Notes under the pieces: generated by a model
Seen by the model: the letters and a program-made list of their open reading frames with translations, nothing else
The model's database searches: none
What the model was told of the DNA's origin: nothing
Source of the DNA: Candidatus Hecatellales archaeon ex4484_218
GTDB taxonomy: Archaea; Thermoproteota; Bathyarchaeia; Hecatellales; Hecatellaceae
Length of the DNA: 15,965 nucleotides
NCBI GenBank assembly: GCA_002254975.1
Contig: NJEB01000053.1
Location: 1-15,965 of the forward strand
Direction: 5' to 3'
Shown here: in pieces, positions 3,231 through 15,910 of the stretch
Layout of the letters: the number at the start of each line of letters is the position of its first letter
Position numbering within the stretch: position 1 is the stretch's first letter
Translations under genes and position numbers: made by a program

Positions 3231-4307
3231 ATGGTTATGGGGAAAAGTGAAAAAGATTTTTTTGAAAGCTGTAAAATTGCTGCTGAGGAAATTTTAAACG
3301 TATGTTATTTTGTTGCAAAAGAAATGGATGAAAAAAATTTAGACCAGTCATGTTTGGCTATTGTGGGTGCATTAGGGGATTTGCAGGATAAAACAAAAAA
3401 TAGATGTCTTCAAAGCTTAAACAAACAAATTGTTGAGGAAGCTAAAAATAAAGGCTTGGTCGAGGTTACAGAAGACCTTTTATTTTACGGTAGGGAAACA
3501 AGACCCATCCATAAAGCAATCTCAACAACCATGAATCCTTTTATTCCTGGTTTAAGTGGTGAGGAAGATAAATGTTTAGGATTTGTTGTTAACCTTGGAA
3601 TACCTTTAAAAGATGGAGACCGATGGAGGTCCATTTCAGACCTAACCCAAGAAGAAAAACAAAAAATTTTTTCCCAACTAACAATATACCTATCTTCCAA
3701 AGGTTTTTCGGAAGAATCTATTTTTCAGCTTATTGGGTGTGTTTACACTTTTTTAGAGGAAGATAAATGGACACCTTTAAGGGATGGAAGAGAATTTGCT
3801 TCTTTACTTAATGCATGTGTTAAAATGGGGAAACCTGGGATTGCTGCAAGTTTATGTTTAGGTAGTAGGGGAGAAATCCTGGATGAGGCTCAAAATCTAC
3901 TTAACGAATACCGTAAAACAATAGGTCAATGTATAAGTTTACTCATAGAAACACCTAAAACCATTGTTGAGCATGAAAAAATGTACGTGGTTAGATGTCA
4001 CAACATTGTTGATGAAAAAATGCTTAGCCCAATTGCTACTATTCTTTCAATTTCTGGGGGATTAAACCCTAACAAACCAATCATAGCTTTAACAAGCATG
4101 AAGGATGGAAGAATAAAAGTTTCGGCTAGAGCAAGCCAAACCTTAACCGATAAGGGTTTAAACATTGGTTTAATTATGCAAACAGCAGCCGAAAAAATTG
4201 GTGGAAAGGGTGGAGGACATAGTGTTGCAGCAGGTGCAACCATCCCTCAAGGAAAAGAGGGGGAATTTATTCGTTTTGTTGAACAAATGGTTAAAGAAAC
4301 CATTTAA
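3231..4307 (+). CDS. DHH-family (archaeal RecJ-like) protein lacking the DHH catalytic core
   Basis: Full-length relatives are single-strand nucleases or nucleotide phosphoesterases of about 460-480 residues, as I recall. This one has 358. Residues 8-21 (DFFESCKIAAEEIL) look like the usual family beginning. The next residues, from CYFVAKEMDEK to GALGDLQD (46-53), match the segment that normally follows the D-x-D and DHH motifs. About 110-120 residues holding those motifs therefore appear absent, in frame. The C-terminal DHHA1 part is present: RETRPIHKA, GRIKVSARAS, and GGKGGGHSVAAG with His near 330. With most Mn ligands missing it should not be an active nuclease; a binding role, decay or an assembly deletion remain possible. 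ATG 3237 is an alternative start. Confidence 0.85.
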   Translation: MVMGKSEKDFFESCKIAAEEILNVCYFVAKEMDEKNLDQSCLAIVGALGDLQDKTKNRCLQSLNKQIVEEAKNKGLVEVTEDLLFYGRETRPIHKAISTTMNPFIPGLSGEEDKCLGFVVNLGIPLKDGDRWRSISDLTQEEKQKIFSQLTIYLSSKGFSEESIFQLIGCVYTFLEEDKWTPLRDGREFASLLNACVKMGKPGIAASLCLGSRGEILDEAQNLLNEYRKTIGQCISLLIETPKTIVEHEKMYVVRCHNIVDEKMLSPIATILSISGGLNPNKPIIALTSMKDGRIKVSARASQTLTDKGLNIGLIMQTAAEKIGGKGGGHSVAAGATIPQGKEGEFIRFVEQMVKETI

Positions 4308-4624: not shown

Positions 4625-6202
4625 TTGGAGAAGGATAAGGTTAGGATAGAGGTTGAATGTAAATTTTTGATGAGTAAGGAAATTGAAGATTTAAAAAATT
4701 TTCTTGAAAAAATTGTGGAAAAAGCAAATAATGAAGTTTTTGTAAGGGGTGTTCCTGAAATTTATCTTAAAGATGTTGCAAAAATTGTTGATTGGAATGT
4801 TGAGGATAAAAATTTAATTCTTAAGGTTATTTCAGGAACTTATGCTCGTGCTCCTTCAGCAATTTTAAGGTTTAAAAAACTTTTAGCTGAAGAATTAGGG
4901 TTAAAGTTTAAGGTTGGTGTTAGGGGTTTAGAAACCCAAAAAATTAGGTTTAAAATTCCTGTTGAGAAGATTTCAAATGAAATTTTGGGTAAGATTAAAA
5001 ATTTGACTTACGTTGAAAATGTTTACTCTGAGGAGAATAACATTGTTGTTGATTTAAAACCTGTTGAGGAAGCAGAATTAAAAAAGAATGTTCCTGATAG
5101 AGTTTTTACTGTTGTTAGGGATATATTAAGGGAAAAAAAGGAAGCTGAGGTTCCACCAGTTCCTCCATTAATTGTTGTTAGGCAAAGTGAACCTAAAAAA
5201 ATTAAGTTTAAGGATGACCCTGTTAAGGTTGCTTTAGAGCTTGGATGGATTAAAGAGTTTCCTGGTAGAGGTCAATGGACCTATACAACACCCTACGCAA
5301 AACTTCTTGAAACCATAGAAAACATTTTGCTGGAGGAAGTAATCCATAAACTTGGTTTTCAACCTTTTATGCTTCCTAAACTTATCCCCCTAGAAATCAT
5401 GCAAAAAATGCCTGGTTATTTGGAGGAAATCCCAGAAGGTATGTACTATGTTTGTCCACCACCTAGGGACCCTGAAGCCTTCACAGAATTTAAAGAAGTT
5501 GTAAGAGTTACTAAAACTGTTCCTAAAGATATTCTTAAAAATGTGGTAAAAGAGCCTGAATATGTTTTATCTCCTGCTCAATGTGAACCTTTTTGGTATT
5601 TTTTTAGCCATGAAGTTTTAAGGGTTGAAGATTTACCTTTTAAACTTTATGATAGGTCAGGTTGGACTTATCGTTGGGAAGGTGGTGGTGTTGAAGGTTT
5701 AGCTAGACTTCAAGAATTTAGAAGAATAGAACTTGTTTATATTGGAACACCTGAACAAGTTGTTGAAATTAGAGATTCTATTGTCGATAAAGTTGTGGAC
5801 GTAGTTGACCGGATACTTGAGCTTGAATGGAGGGTTGTTGCTGCAACACCTTTTTACATGAAAGGTGGTGAAATTGGAGATGTAAGTGACAGTAAAAATG
5901 TTGCTGCTTTTGATGTTGAAATTTATCTACCTTATAGAGGTGAAAAGGGTAAAGCAGAATGGCTTGAAATTGCAGGATGTTTTATTCATAAAGAAAAATT
6001 TGTGAAGAATTTTAGTATTCATGAGGCTAAAAATAGGCCAATATGGACTGGTTGCACCGGACTGGGGACTTCAAGATGGGTTACAGCTTTTCTTGCAACC
6101 CACGGATTTAACCCTAAAAATTGGCCTAGTATGGTTAAAGAAAAATTTGGTAGCTACACCTTACCTAGAACTCTTCTTTGGCCTAAAAAATTTGAGGAAT
6201 AA
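4625..6202 (+). CDS. serS: Seryl-tRNA synthetase, methanogen-type (type 2 SerRS)
   Basis: Charges tRNA(Ser) with serine. The 525-residue protein is the rare class II SerRS form first known from methanogens, not the common bacterial/eukaryotic type. An idiosyncratic N-terminal tRNA-binding domain (about 1-165) is followed by the class II core. Candidate zinc ligands that bind the serine amino group are C320 (SPAQCEPFW), E369 (RRIEL) and C477 (WTGCTGLG). The C320-E369 spacing of 49 equals that of C306-E355 in the Methanosarcina barkeri enzyme. Motif 2 is around YRWEGGGVEGLARLQEFRR (349-367) and motif 3 around GLGTSRW (479-485). It starts at TTG 4625, two bases after pcc1, so translation is probably coupled. 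Confidence 0.93.
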   Translation: MEKDKVRIEVECKFLMSKEIEDLKNFLEKIVEKANNEVFVRGVPEIYLKDVAKIVDWNVEDKNLILKVISGTYARAPSAILRFKKLLAEELGLKFKVGVRGLETQKIRFKIPVEKISNEILGKIKNLTYVENVYSEENNIVVDLKPVEEAELKKNVPDRVFTVVRDILREKKEAEVPPVPPLIVVRQSEPKKIKFKDDPVKVALELGWIKEFPGRGQWTYTTPYAKLLETIENILLEEVIHKLGFQPFMLPKLIPLEIMQKMPGYLEEIPEGMYYVCPPPRDPEAFTEFKEVVRVTKTVPKDILKNVVKEPEYVLSPAQCEPFWYFFSHEVLRVEDLPFKLYDRSGWTYRWEGGGVEGLARLQEFRRIELVYIGTPEQVVEIRDSIVDKVVDVVDRILELEWRVVAATPFYMKGGEIGDVSDSKNVAAFDVEIYLPYRGEKGKAEWLEIAGCFIHKEKFVKNFSIHEAKNRPIWTGCTGLGTSRWVTAFLATHGFNPKNWPSMVKEKFGSYTLPRTLLWPKKFEE

Positions 6203-6853: not shown

Positions 6854-6860
6854 GGTAAAG

Positions 6861-6882
6861 CTTATATTTTGTGCATTTGCAC
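6861..6882 (+). promoter_or_regulatory. TATA box plus palindromic operator upstream of the first Nitro_FeMo-Co gene
   Basis: CTTATATTTT (6861-6870) is a good archaeal TATA box about 40 bases before the ATG. It is followed at once by GTGCA-TT-TGCAC (6871-6882), an inverted repeat in the position where a bound regulator would block the polymerase. The same layout, with the preceding AAGCTTA shared, recurs at 7263-7284. Confidence 0.65.
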
Positions 6883-6901
6883 TTTTTCTTGGTAGTCAAC
6901 A

Positions 6902-7261
6902 ATGAAAATATGTGTAACAGCCGTAGCTGGAAGTTTGGATGCCCAAGTAGACCCAAGGTTTGGTAGATGCCAATATTTTGTGATAGTAGACCCAGAAACA
7001 ATGAGATTTGAGGCGATCCCCAATGTTAGTGCATCAGCTTTAAGCGGAGCTGGAATTCAGGCTGCTCAAATGGTAGTGGATAAAGGTGTGGATGTAGTTA
7101 TAACTGGACAGGTTGGACCTAATTCATATCAAGTATTGTCCTCAGCAGGAATAAAAATTGTAACAGGTGCTTTTGGAACTGTTAGGGAAGCTGTGGAAGC
7201 CTATAAACAGCAACAGTTGGAGGAGGTTAAACGTAGGTTGAAGGAGCTGAGGGAAGGATAA
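6902..7261 (+). CDS. Nitro_FeMo-Co (NifX/MTH1175-like) domain protein 1
   Basis: 119-residue member of the dinitrogenase iron-molybdenum cofactor biosynthesis fold (Pfam PF02579), an RNase H-like alpha/beta domain that binds metal-sulfur clusters in NifX, NafY and the orange protein. The signature VDPRFGRCQYFVIVD spans residues 16-30, preceded by strand KICVTAV. The middle holds AALVV-like cavity residues and DVVITGQVGPNSYQVL, and the end is TVREAVEAYKQ plus a charged helix. Cys residues are C4 and C23. No nitrogenase genes are in view, so a nitrogen-fixation role is not implied. It is a single gene behind an operator-bearing promoter; the next gene has its own promoter starting 1 base after this stop. 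Confidence 0.88.
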   Translation: MKICVTAVAGSLDAQVDPRFGRCQYFVIVDPETMRFEAIPNVSASALSGAGIQAAQMVVDKGVDVVITGQVGPNSYQVLSSAGIKIVTGAFGTVREAVEAYKQQQLEEVKRRLKELREG

Positions 7262-7262
7262 G

Positions 7263-7284
7263 CTTAAATATGTGCATATGCACA
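7263..7284 (+). promoter_or_regulatory. TATA box plus perfect 14-base palindromic operator (TGTGCATATGCACA)
   Basis: CTTAAATA (7263-7270) is followed directly by TGTGCATATGCACA (7271-7284), a perfect dyad. It precedes the Trp-rich gene pair, with AGGTGA (7294-7299) and ATG 7305 downstream. A repressor bound here would cover the transcription start area. It matches the operator at 6871-6882 in both sequence and placement, offset by one base. Confidence 0.75.
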
Positions 7285-7304
7285 AATTATCTTAGGTGAA
7301 AAAA

Positions 7305-7526
7305 ATGGCATGGGGATGGTTTGGTAGAGGAAGAGGAGGATGGTCTGGTCCTTGGCCAGGTAGAGGACCGTGGAGTTGGCTTCCACCATGGCAAAGACCA
7401 GGATGGTGGTTTGGTAGAGGCTGGTGTTGGTGGTTTTTAGCTCCTTACATTCTAGGAACTTATGGTTTACCCTACTCATCCTATCCAGGACCCTATGGAT
7501 ATTCCCCATACTATCCTAGGTGGTGA
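7305..7526 (+). CDS. Trp/Gly/Tyr-rich small protein, DUF5320-like
   Basis: 73-residue protein of extreme composition: 13 Trp and 8 Tyr, with many Gly, Pro and Arg. The first half repeats GRG, PW and WFGRG units (WFGRG at 4-9 with its preceding residue, and again at 35-39) and has W34-W35 and W42-W43 pairs. The second half is a PYSSYPGPYGYSPYYPRW-like tail. C41 is the only Cys. It resembles the Gly/Trp-rich N-terminal part of DUF5320 proteins but lacks the coiled-coil end seen in its neighbours at 7533 and 8504. I prefer ATG 7305, placed 5 bases after AGGTGA; an in-frame GTG at 7296 overlaps that site. Function is unknown; the context suggests it works with Nitro_FeMo-Co proteins and MinD ATPases. 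Confidence 0.75.
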   Translation: MAWGWFGRGRGGWSGPWPGRGPWSWLPPWQRPGWWFGRGWCWWFLAPYILGTYGLPYSSYPGPYGYSPYYPRW

Positions 7527-7527
7527 T
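7519..7527 (+). promoter_or_regulatory. Strong ribosome-binding site overlapping the upstream stop codon
   Basis: GGTGGTGAT differs by one base from the archaeal optimum GGAGGTGAT and lies 5 bases before ATG 7533. It contains the TGA stop (7524-7526) of the upstream Trp-rich gene, so the two genes are probably translationally coupled. Confidence 0.6.
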
Positions 7528-7532
7528 AGATT

Positions 7533-8027
7533 ATGGGTTACCGTTGGAGAAGAATGTATTATCTAACAGGTTTACCTGGTTGGCTTAGATTTGGATATTC
7601 ACCAGGTTGGCTTGGACGTTCCCCAACAGGACTTCCACCCACAGCACAATGGTTAATCCAAAGTGGATTAATTCCTCAACCAACCCAACAATCTCCGGTA
7701 AATCCCTATCCAACTCAACAGCCTCCAATATTTCCCTATCAAACTAAAGAACAAGAAAAACAATTCTTGGAGCAACAAGCAAAAACTTTAGAATCTCAAC
7801 TAGAATTTTTAAGAAGAAGACTTGAGGAACTAAAAAGAGGTTCAACTCAAACAGTAGATTATTCTGTACCATTCATGCCTTTTGGTTATCCAACTGCCTA
7901 TACGCCTACACCTGAAGAAGAATTAGCATCTCTCGAAGAATATAGAAAACAGCTGGATGAAGAAGTTAAAGGTGTAGATGCACGAATAGAGGAACTTAGA
8001 AAACTTTTAGCCAAAAAGAAAACCTAA
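7533..8027 (+). CDS. DUF5320-like protein with Pro/Gln linker and two coiled coils
   Basis: 164 residues in four parts. The N-terminal part (1-30) is aromatic and Gly-rich (GLPGWLRFGYSPGWLG). It is followed by a Pro/Gln/Thr linker with PTQQ units at about 50-70, a first coiled coil at about 71-102 (EKQFLEQQAKTLESQLEFL), and an aromatic linker (VPFMPFGYPTAYTPTP). A second coiled coil at about 127-163 begins EEELASLEEYRKQLDEE. The EEELA-LE pattern is also found at the end of the 8504 product, so the two are paralogues. There are no cysteines. It has no signal peptide or membrane helix; I infer a cytoplasmic scaffold, but function is not known. It is coupled to the preceding Trp-rich gene. Confidence 0.8.
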   Translation: MGYRWRRMYYLTGLPGWLRFGYSPGWLGRSPTGLPPTAQWLIQSGLIPQPTQQSPVNPYPTQQPPIFPYQTKEQEKQFLEQQAKTLESQLEFLRRRLEELKRGSTQTVDYSVPFMPFGYPTAYTPTPEEELASLEEYRKQLDEEVKGVDARIEELRKLLAKKKT

Positions 8028-8033
8028 CTTTAC

Positions 8034-8062
8034 GAAATTTAAAAAATTTCCATCTATTTTTT
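8034..8062 (+). terminator. Possible terminator: short AT hairpin then T-tract
   Basis: GAAATTT (8034-8040) and AAATTTC (8044-8050) are complementary around AAA. A run of six T (8057-8062) follows. It lies in the 61-base gap after the coiled-coil gene. The AT-only sequence could equally contain the TATA element for the gene at 8089. Confidence 0.4.
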
Positions 8063-8088
8063 GGAAAAAATTTTGGAGTTGAGAAATT

Positions 8089-8433
8089 TTGAAAACTAAA
8101 AAAATTAGGGTTGCTCTTCCAACAAATGGTGAAAAAGGTTTAGAAGATACTGTTTCCAATGTTTTTGGAAGAGCAAATACTTTTACGGTTGTTGATGTTG
8201 TTGATGGAAAAATAAAAAATGTTAAGATTCTAAAAAATTTTGCTTCAGGTTATAGTTCAGGTGTTGGTCCTGTTGTTGTTAAGATGCTTGCAGATTCAGG
8301 TGTTAAAATGGTTATTGCTGGTGAAATTGGACCAGGAGCAACAACTCTCCTAGAACAATACAAGATTGATAAAGTTGAGGTTAAACCTGGTTTAACTGTT
8401 AGTGAAGCCATAAAAAATGTTGGGTTAGCTTAA
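8089..8433 (+). CDS. Nitro_FeMo-Co (NifX/MTH1175-like) domain protein 2, no cysteines
   Basis: 114-residue PF02579-type protein, and the most stripped-down of the three paralogues here. It opens KKIRVALPTNGEKGLEDTVSNVFGRANTFTVVD, in which FGRA replaces the FGRC of paralogue 1. It continues VVVKMLADSGVKMVIAGEIGPGATTLL and ends with TVSEAIKNVGLA. It contains neither Cys nor His, so any metal cluster would have to be held by other groups or by partners, as is argued for the orange protein cluster, which is bound non-covalently. The start is TTG 8089, with GGAG 11 bases upstream (a weak fit). No TGCACA operator is visible in front of it. Confidence 0.87.
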   Translation: MKTKKIRVALPTNGEKGLEDTVSNVFGRANTFTVVDVVDGKIKNVKILKNFASGYSSGVGPVVVKMLADSGVKMVIAGEIGPGATTLLEQYKIDKVEVKPGLTVSEAIKNVGLA

Positions 8434-8441
8434 TTGGAGAA

Positions 8442-8464
8442 AAATATATTTCATGAAATGCACA
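8442..8464 (+). promoter_or_regulatory. TATA box with operator half-site upstream of the WWW protein gene
   Basis: AAATATATT (8442-8450) is a good TATA box. ATGCACA (8458-8464) is identical to the right half of the 7271-7284 palindrome and lies at a similar distance from the TATA box. The left half is not recognisable. This could be a degenerate operator or a lower-affinity site. Confidence 0.5.
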
Positions 8465-8503
8465 TAATCACATTAGTCAACCACAAATAGAGTGGTGGTC
8501 AAA

Positions 8504-8800
8504 ATGCCTTTTGGTTTAGGTCCCTGGGGTTGGTTTTTATTTCCTTACATCTACAGCTACACTACACCATATTATGGTTGGACTTATCCTTGGTTTATTG
8601 ATTGGTGGTGGAGATGTAGATGGTTCCCATGGTTACCAAGATGGTGGTGGACAGGGATCTATGGACCAATAACACCTTGGGGTTGGTTTTCACCGACAAT
8701 TTCCAGAGAAGAAGAATTAGCAATGCTTGAAGACCAAGCAAAAATGCTGGAAAAGGAGCTTGAAGATACAAGAAGGAGACTTGAAGAATTTAAAAAATAG
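8504..8800 (+). CDS. Trp-rich DUF5320-like protein with C-terminal coiled coil
   Basis: 98 residues from ATG 8504, with GGTGGT (8494-8499) as ribosome-binding site; an in-frame GTG at 8492 would overlap it. The first about 65 residues hold 14 Trp, including two Trp triplets (IDWWWRCRW and PRWWWTG), and many Tyr, Phe and Pro. The rest is a charged helix, REEELAMLEDQAKMLEKELE, then TRRRLEEFKK, typical of the coiled-coil end of DUF5320 proteins. The single Cys is in the RCRW segment. The Trp block has too many Pro and Arg to be an ordinary membrane helix. Role unknown; it heads the run of genes that includes the third Nitro_FeMo-Co gene and the ATPases. Confidence 0.8.
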   Translation: MPFGLGPWGWFLFPYIYSYTTPYYGWTYPWFIDWWWRCRWFPWLPRWWWTGIYGPITPWGWFSPTISREEELAMLEDQAKMLEKELEDTRRRLEEFKK

Positions 8801-8822
8801 AATTTTTTAGTTTTTACCTAAA

Positions 8823-9287
8823 ATGGTTGAGGTTAAAACCTTGATGGATTTTGAACTTGAGGAAATAAAAAGAAAAAAATTGTTGAAGATGACTTATGGT
8901 TCTGAGGGAAGAAAAGGTTTAAGGGTTTGTGTTCCAACCTATGGTTGGAAGGGCTTAGATGATTATGTTTGTGAGCATTTTGGTAGAGCACCAACCTTTA
9001 CAGTTGTAGATTTATCCAGTAAAAAGGTGGAAGTAGTTCCTAATACAAGCCAACATATGGGCGGTATGGGTTATCCTCCGGAAATAATGCAAAATCTTGG
9101 AGTTGAAGTAATCATTTGTTCAAGTTTAGGTCCTAGAGCTATTAAAATGTTTGAACAATTTGGAATTGAGGTTTATGTAGGAGCATCAGGAACTGTTAAA
9201 GAAGCTATCCAAGCATGGCAAGCAGGTAAACTTCAAATGGCTACTGATGAAAATGCATGTAAAATGCATAAACATCAAAAATTTTAA
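8823..9287 (+). CDS. Nitro_FeMo-Co (MTH1175-like) domain protein 3, with Cys/His-rich tail
   Basis: 154 residues. A charged helical extension (about 1-30, DFELEEIKRKKLLKM) precedes the PF02579 domain: GLRVCVPTYGWKGLDDYVCEHFGRAPTFTVVD (32-63), then VEVIICSSLGPRAIKMFEQFG and GTVKEAIQAWQAGKL. The end, ATDENACKMHKHQKF, is characteristic of an archaeal/anaerobe subgroup of this family as I recall it. Potential metal ligands are C36, C50, H52, H78, C99, C146, H149 and H151, in sharp contrast with paralogue 2. The start is ATG 8823 without an obvious ribosome-binding site, 22 bases after the Trp-rich gene, so co-transcription is likely. Confidence 0.9.
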   Translation: MVEVKTLMDFELEEIKRKKLLKMTYGSEGRKGLRVCVPTYGWKGLDDYVCEHFGRAPTFTVVDLSSKKVEVVPNTSQHMGGMGYPPEIMQNLGVEVIICSSLGPRAIKMFEQFGIEVYVGASGTVKEAIQAWQAGKLQMATDENACKMHKHQKF

Positions 9288-9290
9288 ACC

Positions 9291-9307
9291 CCAAAACAAT
9301 TTTTTGG
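9291..9307 (+). terminator. Weak hairpin/T-tract after Nitro_FeMo-Co gene 3
   Basis: CCAAAA and TTTTGG can pair around a CAATT loop, and the region includes six T bases. It lies in the 33-base gap before the MinD gene. It may cause partial termination; the stem is only 6 bp. Confidence 0.3.
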
Positions 9308-9320
9308 TTAAAAGTGTTAG

Positions 9321-10160
9321 TTGATGATCATTTCAATTGCTAGCGGTAAAGGTGGAACAGGTAAAACTCTTGTTGCTGTAAGTTTAGCTTTATCCATAGA
9401 AAATGTTCAATTTTTAGATTGTGATGTTGAAGAGCCTAACAGCCATATCTTCTTAAAACCAAAAATTTTGGAAAGAAAATCTGTTTATGTTTCTATTCCA
9501 AAAATTGATGAAAATCTTTGTAACCATTGTAAAAAATGCTCAGAATTTTGTGAATATAATGCAATTGTAGTAGTTCCAAATAAAACAATAGTTTTTCCGG
9601 AACTATGCCATAATTGTGGAGGATGTATGCTTGTTTGCCCTCAAAAAGCTATTAGTGAAGAGGAGAAAAAAATTGGTGTTGTTGAAAAAGGGTTTGCTGA
9701 AAACTTAGAATTTGTTGGTGGAAGATTAACTGTTGGGGAACCTAGACCAATCCCAGTAATAGACAAGGTAAAAAATGAAATTTTACCCAATAAAAACGTA
9801 ATCATTGATTCTCCTCCAGGGACTTCATGTCCGGTTATTGCATCCATTTATGGTTGTGATTATTGTATTCTTGTAACTGAACCAACACCCTTTGGTTTAC
9901 ATGACCTAAAACTTATGGTTGAAACAGTTAAAAAAATGAACATTAAATTTGGCGTAATTGTTAATAAAGCAGGGCTGGGAAATAAGGAAGTATACAAATA
10001 TTGTAGAGAAGAAAAAATTCCAATTTTGCTTGAAATCCCCTACAGTAGAAGGATAGCTGAACTTTACTCGTCAGGGATACCCTTTATTAAGGAGATAAAA
10101 GAATGGAAAAATAAGTTTTTAAGTCTTTTTAAAGATTTAAAGGAGAGTTTAACTAGTTGA
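9321..10160 (+). CDS. MinD/Mrp-type ATPase with inserted 2x[4Fe-4S] ferredoxin domain
   Basis: 279-residue P-loop ATPase of the MinD superfamily that carries a ferredoxin insert, common in anaerobe clusters with orange-protein-like genes. The deviant Walker A is GKGGTGKT (9-16). The FLDCDVEEPN switch is at 31-40. Two [4Fe-4S] motifs follow: C67-C70-C73-C77 and C96-C99-C102-C106. The DSPPGTSCPV motif is at 163-172, and VTEPTPFGLHDL at 185-196. It ends with IPYSRRIAELYSSGIPFIKEI. All expected elements are present, so it should be active, probably in metal-sulfur-cluster transfer or positioning. The start is TTG 9321 or ATG 9324. Its stop overlaps the start of the next ATPase gene. Confidence 0.93.
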   Translation: MMIISIASGKGGTGKTLVAVSLALSIENVQFLDCDVEEPNSHIFLKPKILERKSVYVSIPKIDENLCNHCKKCSEFCEYNAIVVVPNKTIVFPELCHNCGGCMLVCPQKAISEEEKKIGVVEKGFAENLEFVGGRLTVGEPRPIPVIDKVKNEILPNKNVIIDSPPGTSCPVIASIYGCDYCILVTEPTPFGLHDLKLMVETVKKMNIKFGVIVNKAGLGNKEVYKYCREEKIPILLEIPYSRRIAELYSSGIPFIKEIKEWKNKFLSLFKDLKESLTS

Positions 10161-10441
10161 AGCAAATTGTTGTTTTAAGTAGTAAAGGCGGCACTGGAAA
10201 AACAACTTTTGCTGCTTCTTTTGCAGCTTTAAGCCAAAACATTGTTGTAGCTGATTGTGATGTTGATGTTGCTGGTCTTCACTTACTTTTAAAACCTGAA
10301 AAAGCAAAGTTTAAACAAGAATTTACAGGCTCAAAATTGGCTTTTATCAATAAAACCTTATGTGTTGAACGTGAAGAATGTGAAGCTTCAAGAGGAATAA
10401 AATTAATATGGGAGAAAGTTTTAGATTTTTTGAAGGATTAA
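10157..10441 (+). CDS. MinD-type ATPase reduced to 94 residues by an internal in-frame loss
   Basis: Residues 1-66 match the beginning of a ferredoxin-bearing MinD ATPase: KQIVVLSSKGGTGKTTF with the deviant Walker A (10-16), VADCDVDVAGLHLLLKPE, and the FINKTLC that normally opens the ferredoxin insert. After C69 and C75 it runs directly into SRGIKLIWEKVLDFLKD, which looks like the family's normal C-terminus. About 190-200 residues, including both cluster motifs and the D-x-P-P-G motif, are thus missing. The TTG start overlaps the upstream TGA (TTGA). It might be a degraded paralogue, a regulator that dimerises with the full ATPase, or an assembly deletion. Full clusters usually carry two complete ATPases side by side. 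Confidence 0.75.
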   Translation: MKQIVVLSSKGGTGKTTFAASFAALSQNIVVADCDVDVAGLHLLLKPEKAKFKQEFTGSKLAFINKTLCVEREECEASRGIKLIWEKVLDFLKD

Positions 10442-10530
10442 GCAAAAGTCTAATATGTTTATTTTAAGTTTTTAATCATTATAAAATTTAAATCATATTT
10501 TAAAAGAAGAATTTGGTTGCGTGAAACTTT

Positions 10531-10848
10531 ATGTGGAAATGGAGTCGCCGTTGGCGTGGGCCTGGTAGGCCTATGAAACCTAGATTTATAAATGTGCAAC
10601 CCAAAGTTATCCAGTTTGTACCTTTAAACCCGGGTGGTTCTCCTATGTTTGAAACAAACCCTATTTACATGACTTTTGATGAATTTGAGGCTTTTAGGCT
10701 TATATTTTATGAAGGTTTAACCCAAGAGGAGGCTGCTAAAAGAATGGGAGTTTCAAGAGGAACTGTTTGGAGATGTTTAGATAATGCTAGAAAAAAAATT
10801 GCTTCAATGCTTGCTGAAAACAGAAGCTTAATCATTACAACTGAATAA
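10531..10848 (+). CDS. DUF134 (UPF0251) helix-turn-helix protein, candidate cluster regulator
   Basis: 105-residue member of the DUF134 family (COG1342), predicted DNA-binding proteins. The core is typical: IYMTFDEFEAFRLIFYEGL (47-65), TQEEAAKRMGVSRGTVWRCLDNARKKIASML (66-96) containing the sigma-like helix-turn-helix, and the short LIITTE end. The N-terminus, MWKWSRRWRGPGRPMKPR, is Trp/Arg/Gly-rich and echoes the DUF5320 neighbours. The Cys residues often found near the N-terminus of bacterial members are absent; the only Cys is in WRCLDN. It lies 89 bases after the small ATPase, with AT-rich TATA-like sequence around 10478-10497. Binding to the TGTGCA...TGCACA operators is my inference from co-location only. 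Confidence 0.88.
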   Translation: MWKWSRRWRGPGRPMKPRFINVQPKVIQFVPLNPGGSPMFETNPIYMTFDEFEAFRLIFYEGLTQEEAAKRMGVSRGTVWRCLDNARKKIASMLAENRSLIITTE

Positions 10849-14542: not shown

Positions 14543-15910
14543 ATGGCTAGACCCAATCCTGAAAGAAAAACTAAATGGCCTTATTATTGGGACCGAAGAA
14601 TTGAAACAATGCCTAGAAAAGAACTTCAAGAACTTCAAGATAAAAAGATCCGTTATATTGTTCGTTGGGCTTGGGAAAATTCTCAATTTCACCGAAAACT
14701 TTGGGAAGAAAAGGCTCCAGGTGTAACTCCGGATGATATTAAAGGTTATGCTGACCTAATTAAGCTTCCAACTTATGTTAAAAATGATATTAGAGCTATT
14801 GAAGCTGAAAATCCACCTTTTGGCACAATTATGTCTCTGTCTGATAGTTATCTTTACAAACTTTGTGCTTCAACAGGAACAACTGGAAGACCAACCTACA
14901 ATGTTTGGACACCTACTGAGGAAGAGTATGGTAGGGATATTATGGATAGATGTTGGTGGACAATGATGATGAGGCCAGGAGACATTTACTATTGTAGTTG
15001 GAGAATGGATTACCATTATGCTTGGGGTGTACGATTTTATAAGGCAAGTATAAGGATGGGGATGAAAGTTGTTCCTATAGGTTCATGTCCTATAGGTACC
15101 TCACCCCAAATTATGAAGGATTTTATAAATGAGGTTAGACCAACTGTGATTGGTGGGACTCCTTCAGGTATGTATAGTGTAGCCTTAATGTTAAGAGATT
15201 GGGGAATAGACCCTCCATTTGAAATTGTTCATACTGCTGGTGAACCTTTACCAAGGGATGCAAGAAAAAGACTTCAAGACATCTTTAACACAGATTATGT
15301 AATGGATTTTTTCGGTTTTAGTGAGGAAACAACCTTAAACTGTTGTGAATGTGACCAGATGATTGGTGACCATTGGTGGCATGATGCTTCAGCCTTTGAA
15401 ATAATAGACCCTGATACTGAGGAAAGATTGGCTGCTGGTGAAAGAGGGATTTTTGTTTTTACTTCACTTGTAAACCATACATTTCCCATGATTAGGTTTA
15501 ATGTTGAAGATACAACCTACTATATTGAAGATTTATGTCCATGTGGAAGAACCCACTATCTATTCCCAGTAGGAATTCCTGGAAGACAAGAATGGTTAGT
15601 TAAGGTTAAAGATAAATACTTCTTACCTTGGGATGTTGAAAATGTTGTAAGAAAATACATTAGTGACCTAAAAGAATACCAGATAGTTAAGGATACCCCG
15701 CTTGAACATCCCTATATCCATATTAGGCTTGAACCTCAACCAGATAAGGTTCCTAAAAACCCTGATGATTGGGTTAAAGAATGGGAAGCAAAACTTTCTC
15801 AGGAGCTTGGTGCACCAGTAAAAATTGATTATACACCTCCAGGTGGAATTCCAGCACCCATCTGGAAAAAAACCTATGTTATCCATAAATGGAAAGAGAA
15901 AAAAGCATAG
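14543..15910 (+). CDS. Phenylacetate-CoA ligase-like adenylate-forming enzyme (PaaK family)
   Basis: 455-residue ANL-superfamily enzyme, expected to activate a carboxylic acid with ATP and load it onto CoA. It has the PaaK-type N-terminus (YYWDRRIETMPRKELQELQ, IRYIVRWAWENSQFHRKLW). The phosphate loop is ASTGTTGRP (109-117), GTPSGM is at 205-210, TAGEPLP is at 231-237, the adenine-binding FGFSEETT is at 257-264, IRFNVEDTT is at 317-325, and the small C-terminal domain begins after CGRTHYLFPVG. C267, C268, C270, C332 and C334 could form a metal site. Length fits the family (about 430-440) with a slightly longer tail. The acyl substrate is not predictable; an aromatic acid is the family default. 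Confidence 0.9.
   Translation: MARPNPERKTKWPYYWDRRIETMPRKELQELQDKKIRYIVRWAWENSQFHRKLWEEKAPGVTPDDIKGYADLIKLPTYVKNDIRAIEAENPPFGTIMSLSDSYLYKLCASTGTTGRPTYNVWTPTEEEYGRDIMDRCWWTMMMRPGDIYYCSWRMDYHYAWGVRFYKASIRMGMKVVPIGSCPIGTSPQIMKDFINEVRPTVIGGTPSGMYSVALMLRDWGIDPPFEIVHTAGEPLPRDARKRLQDIFNTDYVMDFFGFSEETTLNCCECDQMIGDHWWHDASAFEIIDPDTEERLAAGERGIFVFTSLVNHTFPMIRFNVEDTTYYIEDLCPCGRTHYLFPVGIPGRQEWLVKVKDKYFLPWDVENVVRKYISDLKEYQIVKDTPLEHPYIHIRLEPQPDKVPKNPDDWVKEWEAKLSQELGAPVKIDYTPPGGIPAPIWKKTYVIHKWKEKKA

Follow-up and report, generated by a model that had tools for sequence, protein, structure and literature searches.

The closest described relatives of the gene cluster analysed here are the orange-protein (ORP) cluster of Desulfovibrio vulgaris (Orp3, 4, 5, 8 and 9) and the iron-sulfide storage protein IssA (SipA) of Pyrococcus furiosus. 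The accessible text on the ORP set gives Orp9, Orp8/Orp5 and Orp3/Orp4 as its Mrp-like, Nitro_FeMo-Co and MinD-ferredoxin parts, respectively (PMC6345978). The tail of IssA is described as Pro-rich plus WGRGWGRG-type with one Cys, and in some members of the IssA clade it is short or missing, according to the accessible portion of PMC5524996. Among the first five entries for sulfur-induced genes of Palaeococcus, in the available part of the source, are SipA/IssA (log2 6.23), an Fe-Mo protein (4.29) and two CobQ/Fe-S proteins (3.74 and 3.41) (PMC6981617), the latter two, to judge from their name, corresponding to a MinD-ferredoxin pair. Work on IssA and work on ORP have so far run separately. 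An operator and a gene set common to both would connect the two, and would bear on how strict anaerobes store and traffic iron and sulfide.

The window, that is, the whole stretch of 15,965 nucleotides that was analysed, belongs to a Ca. Hecatellales MAG with an assembly of 628 kb that is 61% complete. It harbors nine same-strand reading frames (6902-10848, + strand), all open, with two putative promoter regions:

6860..6869, + strand: TATA-like box of the NFM1 promoter, GCTTATATTT (read by eye, aligned with other sites)
6870..6883, no strand assigned: putative operator copy 1, TGTGCATTTGCACT, one mismatch to TGTGCATNTGCACA (alignment with other sites)
6902..7261, + strand: NFM1, 119 aa, PF02579, orange-protein type (profile match, tree)
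7262..7270, + strand: TATA-like box of the second promoter, GCTTAAATA (read by eye, aligned)
7271..7284, no strand assigned: putative operator copy 2, perfect palindrome TGTGCATATGCACA (alignment with other sites)
7296..7526, + strand: Trp/Gly/Arg (WGR) protein, 76 aa, probable start ATG at 7305 (sequence, homologue alignment)
7533..8027, + strand: DUF5320 protein, 164 aa, Pro/Gln-rich with coiled coils (DUF5320 39.3 bits, cut-off 27)
8089..8433, + strand: NFM2, 114 aa, PF02579, cysteine-free (profile match, tree)
8492..8800, + strand: DUF5320 protein, 102 aa, N-terminus Trp/Tyr/Pro-rich (DUF5320 29.0 bits, cut-off 27)
8823..9287, + strand: NFM3, 154 aa, PF02579, CEHFG motif and C-terminal Cys/His (profile match, tree)
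9321..10160, + strand: MinD-type ATPase, 279 aa, with an inserted two-cluster ferredoxin domain, Orp3/Orp4-like (CbiA and two Fer4)
10157..10441, + strand: remnant of a second MinD-ferredoxin ATPase, 94 aa (comparison with a 289-aa same-genus protein)
10531..10848, + strand: DUF134 protein, 105 aa, sigma-region-4-like HTH, candidate regulator (PF02001 82.6 bits, cut-off 27)

The sequence-only reading had named three Nitro_FeMo-Co (NFM) proteins, a ferredoxin-bearing MinD ATPase, a remnant second ATPase and a DUF134 gene, and the analysis confirmed each of them. The NFM proteins score 88.6, 64.7 and 83.6 bits on PF02579 (cut-off 26.3) and are the sole PF02579 genes detected in the host assembly. 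CbiA and both Fer4 stretches lie in one protein, and the DUF134 protein, well above the Pfam cut-off, falls narrowly under that of NCBIfam PRK04217 (114.4 against 115).

By sequence, all three NFM domains match solved Nitro_FeMo-Co proteins, in line with the proposed assignment of the small domains to this fold. The best solved match of NFM1 is the D. gigas orange protein 2WFB (E 2.1e-21), and in a tree of 37 rows that includes one orange protein NFM1 is its sister with support 99/86. NFM2 groups with Thermococcus issA-like domains at 90/92, which is under the starred level, in a tree that does not include P. furiosus IssA; NFM3 and PH0822 fall in one clade (99/97). BathyG039_B, which a domain-only NFM profile does not recognise, was left out of the tree, and 'issA-like' is a label set by tail and domain, not by comparison with the P. 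furiosus IssA sequence. Thermococcus NFM proteins encoded less than 10 kb from DUF134 have tails that combine a Pro-rich part with WGRGWGRG-type sequence and contain a single Cys, as described for IssA. The long cationic, aromatic/glycine-rich C-terminal tail that marks IssA is missing from the window NFM1, which lacks a Gly/Arg/Met- and Pro-rich, coiled stretch of ca. 65 amino acids found in the near-identical P0006; the NFM1 of P0006 and that of the same-genus L033 bear a Gly/Arg/Met-rich IssA-like tail (GMGRGMG). Strain-level variation or an assembly error may account for the loss. The earlier orange-protein-like interpretation is supported, with a direct kinship in the case of NFM1, but it missed the IssA side, visible in the tails of relatives and in the WGR protein.

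The WGR protein has a pI of 10.2, 32% aromatic residues and no Asp or Glu, and in sequence it resembles a detached IssA tail. Its AlphaFold model is too weak to be of use (mean pLDDT 51.4). The family core is WPGRGPFSYLPPWQRPGW (WPGRGPWSWLPPWQRPGW in the window) in a 39-row alignment with 34 rows from 91 homologues; this core is strongly conserved and the IssA tail only loosely, so the WGR protein may have a more specific role. The three small proteins had been called Trp/Gly-rich and DUF5320-like. DUF5320 exceeds its cut-off in two of them, and for the 76-aa protein, which gave no match of its own in the Pfam scan, the name is fair because PF17253 is present in 24 of the 91 homologues found for it. 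'Trp/Gly-rich' is too loose for the protein starting at 7533, which is rich in Pro and Gln, has coiled coils and is only 12% aromatic. A literature search, largely of non-subscription sources, found no paper uniting DUF134 or DUF5320 with orange protein. An archaeal G-quadruplex paper names both DUF134 and DUF5320 in its accessible text.

The second ATPase has lost the middle of the protein, and its P-loop is substituted (SKGGTGKT). An assembly artefact is ruled out as the cause of the truncation because the junction recurs in a 91-aa homologue encoded on a different contig. No second intact MinD-ferredoxin ATPase was found in the 61% complete assembly. The ORP cluster has a pair of MinD ATPases, both of them with two 4Fe-4S motifs; the window has only one intact member of such a pair, and an intact pair occurs in 23 of 40 related stretches. 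Likewise, no Mrp of the MrpORP/Orp9 type (P-loop plus Di-Nase) is encoded in the window; in the host assembly the Mrp search gave, besides the window MinD genes, one match of 27.6 bits (cut-off 27.1) in a 168-aa frame. A ferredoxin-less P-loop ATPase adjoins NFM in 19 of the 40 stretches, and the two that were checked are Mrp/NUBPL. Relatives carry, in other words, an ORP-like core.

The gene set is widespread in archaea and not peculiar to this archaeon. Among 121 genomes of the class, DUF134 is found in 48 of the 60 with NFM compared with 9 of the 61 others (p=1.6e-13) and DUF5320 in 46 compared with 3 (p=3e-17); NFM, DUF134 and DUF5320 are all present in 42, and these tests argue against a chance assembly of genes. 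In 33 of the 40 related stretches DUF134 is no more than 1.5 kb away from NFM or DUF5320, and 14 contain NFM-DUF5320 fusions; the counts for these stretches are the same with a domain-only NFM profile, and with the domain-only profile NFM was detected at 35 of 79 DUF134 loci. The neighbourhood comparison hence upholds the proposed co-conservation. As to the proposal of a distinct version, DUF5320/WGR proteins and DUF134 are indeed added to ORP-type parts, but the set is common in archaea.

A link to nitrogenase was rejected, as searches for NifD/NifK-like components gave no match in the eight genomes of the host's family. The stated absence of nif genes was confirmed to the extent of the 61% complete host assembly, in which no nitrogenase component was detected. 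In the class, nitrogenase-like matches occur in 7 of 121 genomes; five pass the cut-off, and of these only G119 has PF02579, so that one of the 60 NFM genomes has such a component above cut-off. G039 and G068, both with PF02579, gave weak matches of 18.3 bits. NFM2 scores only 19.5 bits on NifX (cut-off 112) and 19.0 bits on NifB (cut-off 343.65).

The palindrome TGTGCATATGCACA is new here. It precedes NFM and DUF5320 genes as well as the issA-like genes of Thermococcus, and further copies lie near Mrp, CDF, FeoA and MinD genes. At two window genes it stands directly 3' of a TATA-like box, once perfect and once as a near copy; in a genome of the same genus the gene behind operator copy 1 likewise has a site (L033 11835), and 7271..7284 is the sole TGTGCANNTGCACA site in the 628-kb host assembly. 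For GTGCANNTGCAC, 30 distinct sites were found in 1.65 Mb, 24 of them at gene starts of four families, a zone that makes up 5.7% of the bases searched, whereas 12 control palindromes gave 14 sites altogether and none in this zone. Eight Thermococci genomes contain 15 sites, at seven issA-like genes, three small NFM genes, one unclear gene and four others, namely a MinD pair (509 bases off), Mrp, CDF and FmdE-ABC with one site each; a PH0822-type gene is among the operator-bearing genes of Thermococci. The candidate DNA switch ties the gene set to iron and sulfur handling, not nitrogen fixation. In the searchable part of the literature, the letters of the palindrome occur in two papers, which by title and abstract concern human telomeres and G6PD.

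We consider it probable that the cluster is an archaeal module that stores iron sulfide and delivers iron-sulfur units, composed of ORP-type and IssA-type parts under one operator. It is best read as partly eroded in this genome: the tailless NFM1 and the decayed second ATPase suggest that the system may be eroding here. The Nitro_FeMo-Co domains would bind an iron-sulfide polymer or cluster, and the cationic Trp/Gly/Arg proteins would serve in trans as IssA tails do, attaching to the anionic mineral and clustering particles. The MinD-ferredoxin ATPase would use ATP and electrons to load or unload iron sulfide. The palindrome, which lies between the TATA box and the start codon, would be occupied by a regulator, with DUF134 the likeliest, that keeps the genes repressed until there is an excess of iron sulfide or sulfide. 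The published sulfur-induction data fit this iron-sulfide reading.

A strict orange-protein complex, in which NFM1 carries a Mo-Cu-S cluster that the other parts mature or use, would explain the affinity of NFM1 to the D. gigas protein and the presence in relatives of an Mrp-like ATPase, at least two Nitro_FeMo-Co proteins and a MinD-ferredoxin pair, as in Orp9, Orp8/Orp5 and Orp3/Orp4. It appears unlikely: the operator links the set to issA-like genes, FeoA, Mrp and a CDF transporter, and none of the 16 scanned window proteins is a molybdenum-cofactor or molybdate-transport protein. Another Di-Nase domain is moreover reported, in the accessible text, with a 3Fe-4S and not a Mo-Cu cluster (PMC6345978). 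Nothing in the sequence analyses of the cluster and its relatives points to Mo-Cu, and iron sulfide is preferred on account of the IssA-like tails and of the operator that the genes share. Since the ATPases belong to the MinD family, a role in positioning or cell division, which has been put forward for bacterial orp operons, was also considered; with ferredoxin domains in the ATPases, cluster-binding domains as partners, most operator-linked genes concerned with iron and sulfur, and one ATPase lost here while the rest is retained, this seems very improbable. Decay of the whole locus to a relic kept by linkage, not function, would accommodate the truncated ATPase, whose P-loop substitutions differ between the window and P0213, and an NFM1 tail that P0006 still has. 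The other eight genes, however, are open and 60-85% identical to same-genus copies, both palindromes and TATA-like boxes are present and the missing tail may have either of the explanations given above, so that we regard a relic as decidedly unlikely.

A further alternative concerns the regulator only and is compatible with the iron-sulfide module. Iron regulation in P. furiosus is exerted by DtxR, one site (L197) is flanked by FeoA and a DtxR-type gene, and G348 has motif and NFM with DUF134 undetected; a DtxR-family repressor at the palindrome, with DUF134 merely co-resident, is therefore a possible if doubtful alternative. Against it, DUF134 is present in 9 of 10 strict-motif genomes compared with 91 of 240 others in the phylum sample (p=0.0014), and in several genomes the palindrome lies within the divergent promoter common to DUF134 and DUF5320. 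In G178 and G236, which are among these ten, the site lies away from such genes; dropping both leaves DUF134 in 7 of 8. The strict motif is missing from 91 of the 100 DUF134 genomes in the sample. DUF134 is considered the most likely regulator. More tentatively, anaerobic archaea from Bathyarchaeia to Thermococcales may share one iron-sulfide regulon. Under a DUF134 repressor on TGTGCATATGCACA, it would comprise carriers of the orange-protein and IssA types, the MinD-ferredoxin ATPases, Mrp, iron transport and the detached Trp/Gly/Arg 'tail' proteins, and several proteins would divide the storage of iron sulfide between them. If true, this regulon would give a role to DUF134, listed as 'unknown function' in Pfam.

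Similar to the ORP cluster of D. vulgaris, the window combines an orange-protein-like Nitro_FeMo-Co domain with further Nitro_FeMo-Co proteins and a MinD ATPase with two 4Fe-4S motifs, and the likeness extends in relatives to the Mrp-like ATPase and the ATPase pair. Unlike that cluster, the set is archaeal, includes DUF5320/WGR proteins and DUF134, and has a palindromic putative operator where ORP has sigma-54; the window itself has a single intact ATPase and no Mrp. NifX, NafY and NifB, the nitrogenase cofactor carriers, share the domain family, but no nitrogenase component was found in the eight genomes of the host's family. The solved proteins MTH1175, TM1290 and PH0822 are of the same family as the window NFM proteins by sequence; they are, however, single-domain proteins listed as hypothetical. 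With IssA, the relatives have in common a Nitro_FeMo-Co domain with a cationic Gly/Arg tail, and Thermococcus issA-like genes bear the same putative operator as the window. In contrast to IssA, the NFM1 of the window is tailless and its domain is closer in the tree to ORP than to the issA-like domains, with separate Trp/Gly/Arg proteins possibly supplying the tail.

The nine forward-strand genes between 6902 and 10848 represent a genuine, recurring archaeal system that unites parts of the orange protein (ORP) type with parts of the type of IssA (SipA), the iron-sulfide storage protein of Pyrococcus furiosus. Its role is most likely iron-sulfide storage and delivery, the functional steps of which we infer. 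The window is one complete contig (15,965 bases) of a 628-kb assembly with a completeness of 61%, and its sequence and domain scans match the cluster described in a sequence-only reading. That these families (Nitro_FeMo-Co, PF02579, here NFM; DUF5320; MinD; DUF134) recur together in archaeal neighbourhoods, a point which that reading had put forward for checking, was borne out by co-occurrence in 121 drawn genomes of the class, the host among them, and by 40 fetched stretches. With matches accepted at E up to 0.001, PF02579 was found in 60 of the 121 genomes, DUF5320 in 49 and DUF134 in 57; NFM and DUF134 have 48 genomes in common, NFM and DUF5320 46, and all three 42. The 40 stretches were fetched around such matches and picked for holding them, not at random, and several end at contig ends. 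In 33 of them DUF134 is no farther than 1.5 kb from NFM or DUF5320, and in 28 it is on the opposite strand at a distance of up to 700 bases. An intact pair of MinD-type ATPases with ferredoxin domains is present in 23 stretches and NFM-DUF5320 fusions in 14, while 19 have a P-loop protein without ferredoxin at most 400 bases from NFM; both of these P-loop neighbours that were scanned are Mrp/NUBPL proteins. A scan seeded with DUF134 covered the best 80 of 457 relatives, equal to 79 distinct loci, at least five of which are probably also among the 40 stretches. NFM or DUF5320 is in reach at 46 of these 79 loci (NFM 35, DUF5320 33, MinD-type 31) and neither at 33, part of them on short contigs. 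Named hosts bearing the genes include Hadesarchaea, Desulfurococcales, Baldr- and Odinarchaeota and Thermococcus.

The set stands apart from nitrogenase, as originally suggested: nitrogenase-component matches (PF00148) occur in 7 of the 121 class genomes, five above the cut-off, and among these five PF02579 is present in G119 alone. The remaining two, G039 and G068, match only weakly (18.3 bits) and both contain PF02579; in G036, G043, G071 and G077 nitrogenase-component-like genes score above the cut-off and a PF02579 match is absent. The second ATPase had been called a remnant, and a homolog, P0213 (89% identical), has the identical junction. The window's second ATPase retains about the first 77 and about the last ten residues, having lost its ferredoxin region along with the catalytic half. 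Because P0213 shares the junction but differs in its P-loop (GKGGTEKT versus SKGGTGKT in the window), the loss is in all likelihood genuine and predates the divergence of the two strains, as judged from these sequences; P0213 also lacks three residues immediately before the junction. Elsewhere in the window, 4625-6202 encodes a class II tRNA synthetase with a PF18490 tRNA-binding domain, which we take to be the rare methanogen-type seryl-tRNA synthetase, and 14543-15910, ending just inside the contig end, an AMP-binding ligase (PF00501) with no relation to the cluster.

NFM1, NFM2 and NFM3 seem to be three kinds rather than three copies, because each groups elsewhere in a 37-row tree, which is small, has a single orange protein and leaves out P. 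furiosus IssA, NifX, NafY and NifB. NFM1, whose best match is the D. gigas orange protein, is sister to it (99/86), NFM2 groups with issA-like domains from Thermococcus (90/92, unstarred) and NFM3 shares a clade with PH0822 (99/97); the respective values were 96/84, 88/89 and 98/99 in an earlier tree that contained a single wrong row. Two further loci (L080, 11320-12156; L093, 14890-15744) encode proteins of 278-284 residues with apparently two Nitro_FeMo-Co domains and a Pro-rich linker between them.

In NFM1 of a same-genus relative (190 residues) the domain is followed by a GMGRGMG stretch, a region rich in Pro and a coiled coil of DUF5320 type, and both Pfam domains are present in all 120 best-scoring of its 6520 homologs. 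The window NFM1 runs from EAYK directly into QQQLEE without the tail; P0006, a homolog with one difference within the first 102 residues, has it. The adjacent 76-residue Trp/Gly/Arg (WGR) protein has a pI of 10.2, 32% aromatic residues, 20% Gly and no acidic residues. In the IssA tail, conserved in its Trp, Gly and Arg character, 14 of 70 residues are aromatic, 15 are Gly and 7 are cationic, and the pI is 10.7, according to PMC5524996. In Thermococcus, NFMs no farther than 10 kb from DUF134 bear IssA-type tails, on which grounds they were labeled issA-like. The separate WGR protein would serve as a tail in trans; since its core is far more conserved in the alignment than the IssA tail, its function may be more specific.

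Two copies of a palindrome, the putative operator, precede genes of the cluster:

6870-6883, before NFM1: operator copy 1, TGTGCATTTGCACT, directly after a TATA-like box
7271-7284, before the WGR protein gene: operator copy 2, TGTGCATATGCACA, directly after a TATA-like box

A loose pattern does not stand out in the window alone: when as many as 3 mismatches are allowed, there are 6 matches versus 3.35 expected. In 1.65 Mb of related loci, which had been fetched for NFM or DUF134, GTGCANNTGCAC occurs 34 times versus 0-1 in five Markov sequences. After duplicate removal, 24 of 30 sites are at gene starts of the four families, which together take up 5.7% of the bases; twelve control palindromes gave 14 sites in total, none in this zone. 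Among 31 hand-picked aligned sites, the core of which was set by the search and the A/T flanks were not, the flanks are T in 28 and A in 28. By eye, a TATA-like box precedes many sites, with none clear at the Mrp and FeoA sites. TGTGCANNTGCACA is found once in the host assembly, in 15 of 121 class genomes (at this cluster in nine; reversed-pattern control 3) and in 14 of 20 genomes selected for DUF134 loci (control 2). The strict palindrome occurs in 10 of 250 phylum genomes (11 sites; control 3), DUF134 in 100, and both in nine (p=0.0014). Among these sites, that of G236 is inside an unrelated gene, that of G178 between membrane proteins, and that of G348 15 bases before an NFM gene, yet DUF134 was not detected there. 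DUF134 is a likely candidate regulator. A literature search did not find the shared operator in print.

Eight Thermococci genomes have 15 operator sites (control 0/8): seven before issA-like genes, three before small PH0822-type genes, single ones before a MinD pair (509 bases off), Mrp (88 bases), a CDF transporter and an FmdE-ABC operon, and one without a clear gene. The CDF cation transporter (L190, site 2783) and the operon of FmdE and a periplasmic binding protein (L194, site 3780) are among the genes preceded by the palindrome; in L193 a WGR-type protein (1895-2077) lies about 1.1 kb from the palindrome without clear target. In a Thermoprotei locus (L197, G134:C7) the palindrome at 4074 is flanked by FeoA and a gene of the DtxR family, and the operator may therefore belong to a wider iron regulon; a FeoB-like gene is seen by eye behind FeoA. 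Most of these Thermococci and L197 targets are iron or Fe-S genes.

Comparison with the ORP systems draws on PMC6345978, MrpORP domains included, and PMC3897727. IssA homologs are described as patchy across methanogens and their kin in PMC8351635. PMC6981617 lists, for Palaeococcus pacificus on sulfur, SipA/IssA (log2 6.23), an Fe-Mo protein numbered near it (4.29) and two CobQ/Fe-S proteins (3.74 and 3.41); these fill the top five rows of its Table 1 together with HypF (3.43). SipA of Thermococcus onnurineus is likewise up with sulfur, as stated in PMC4463584.
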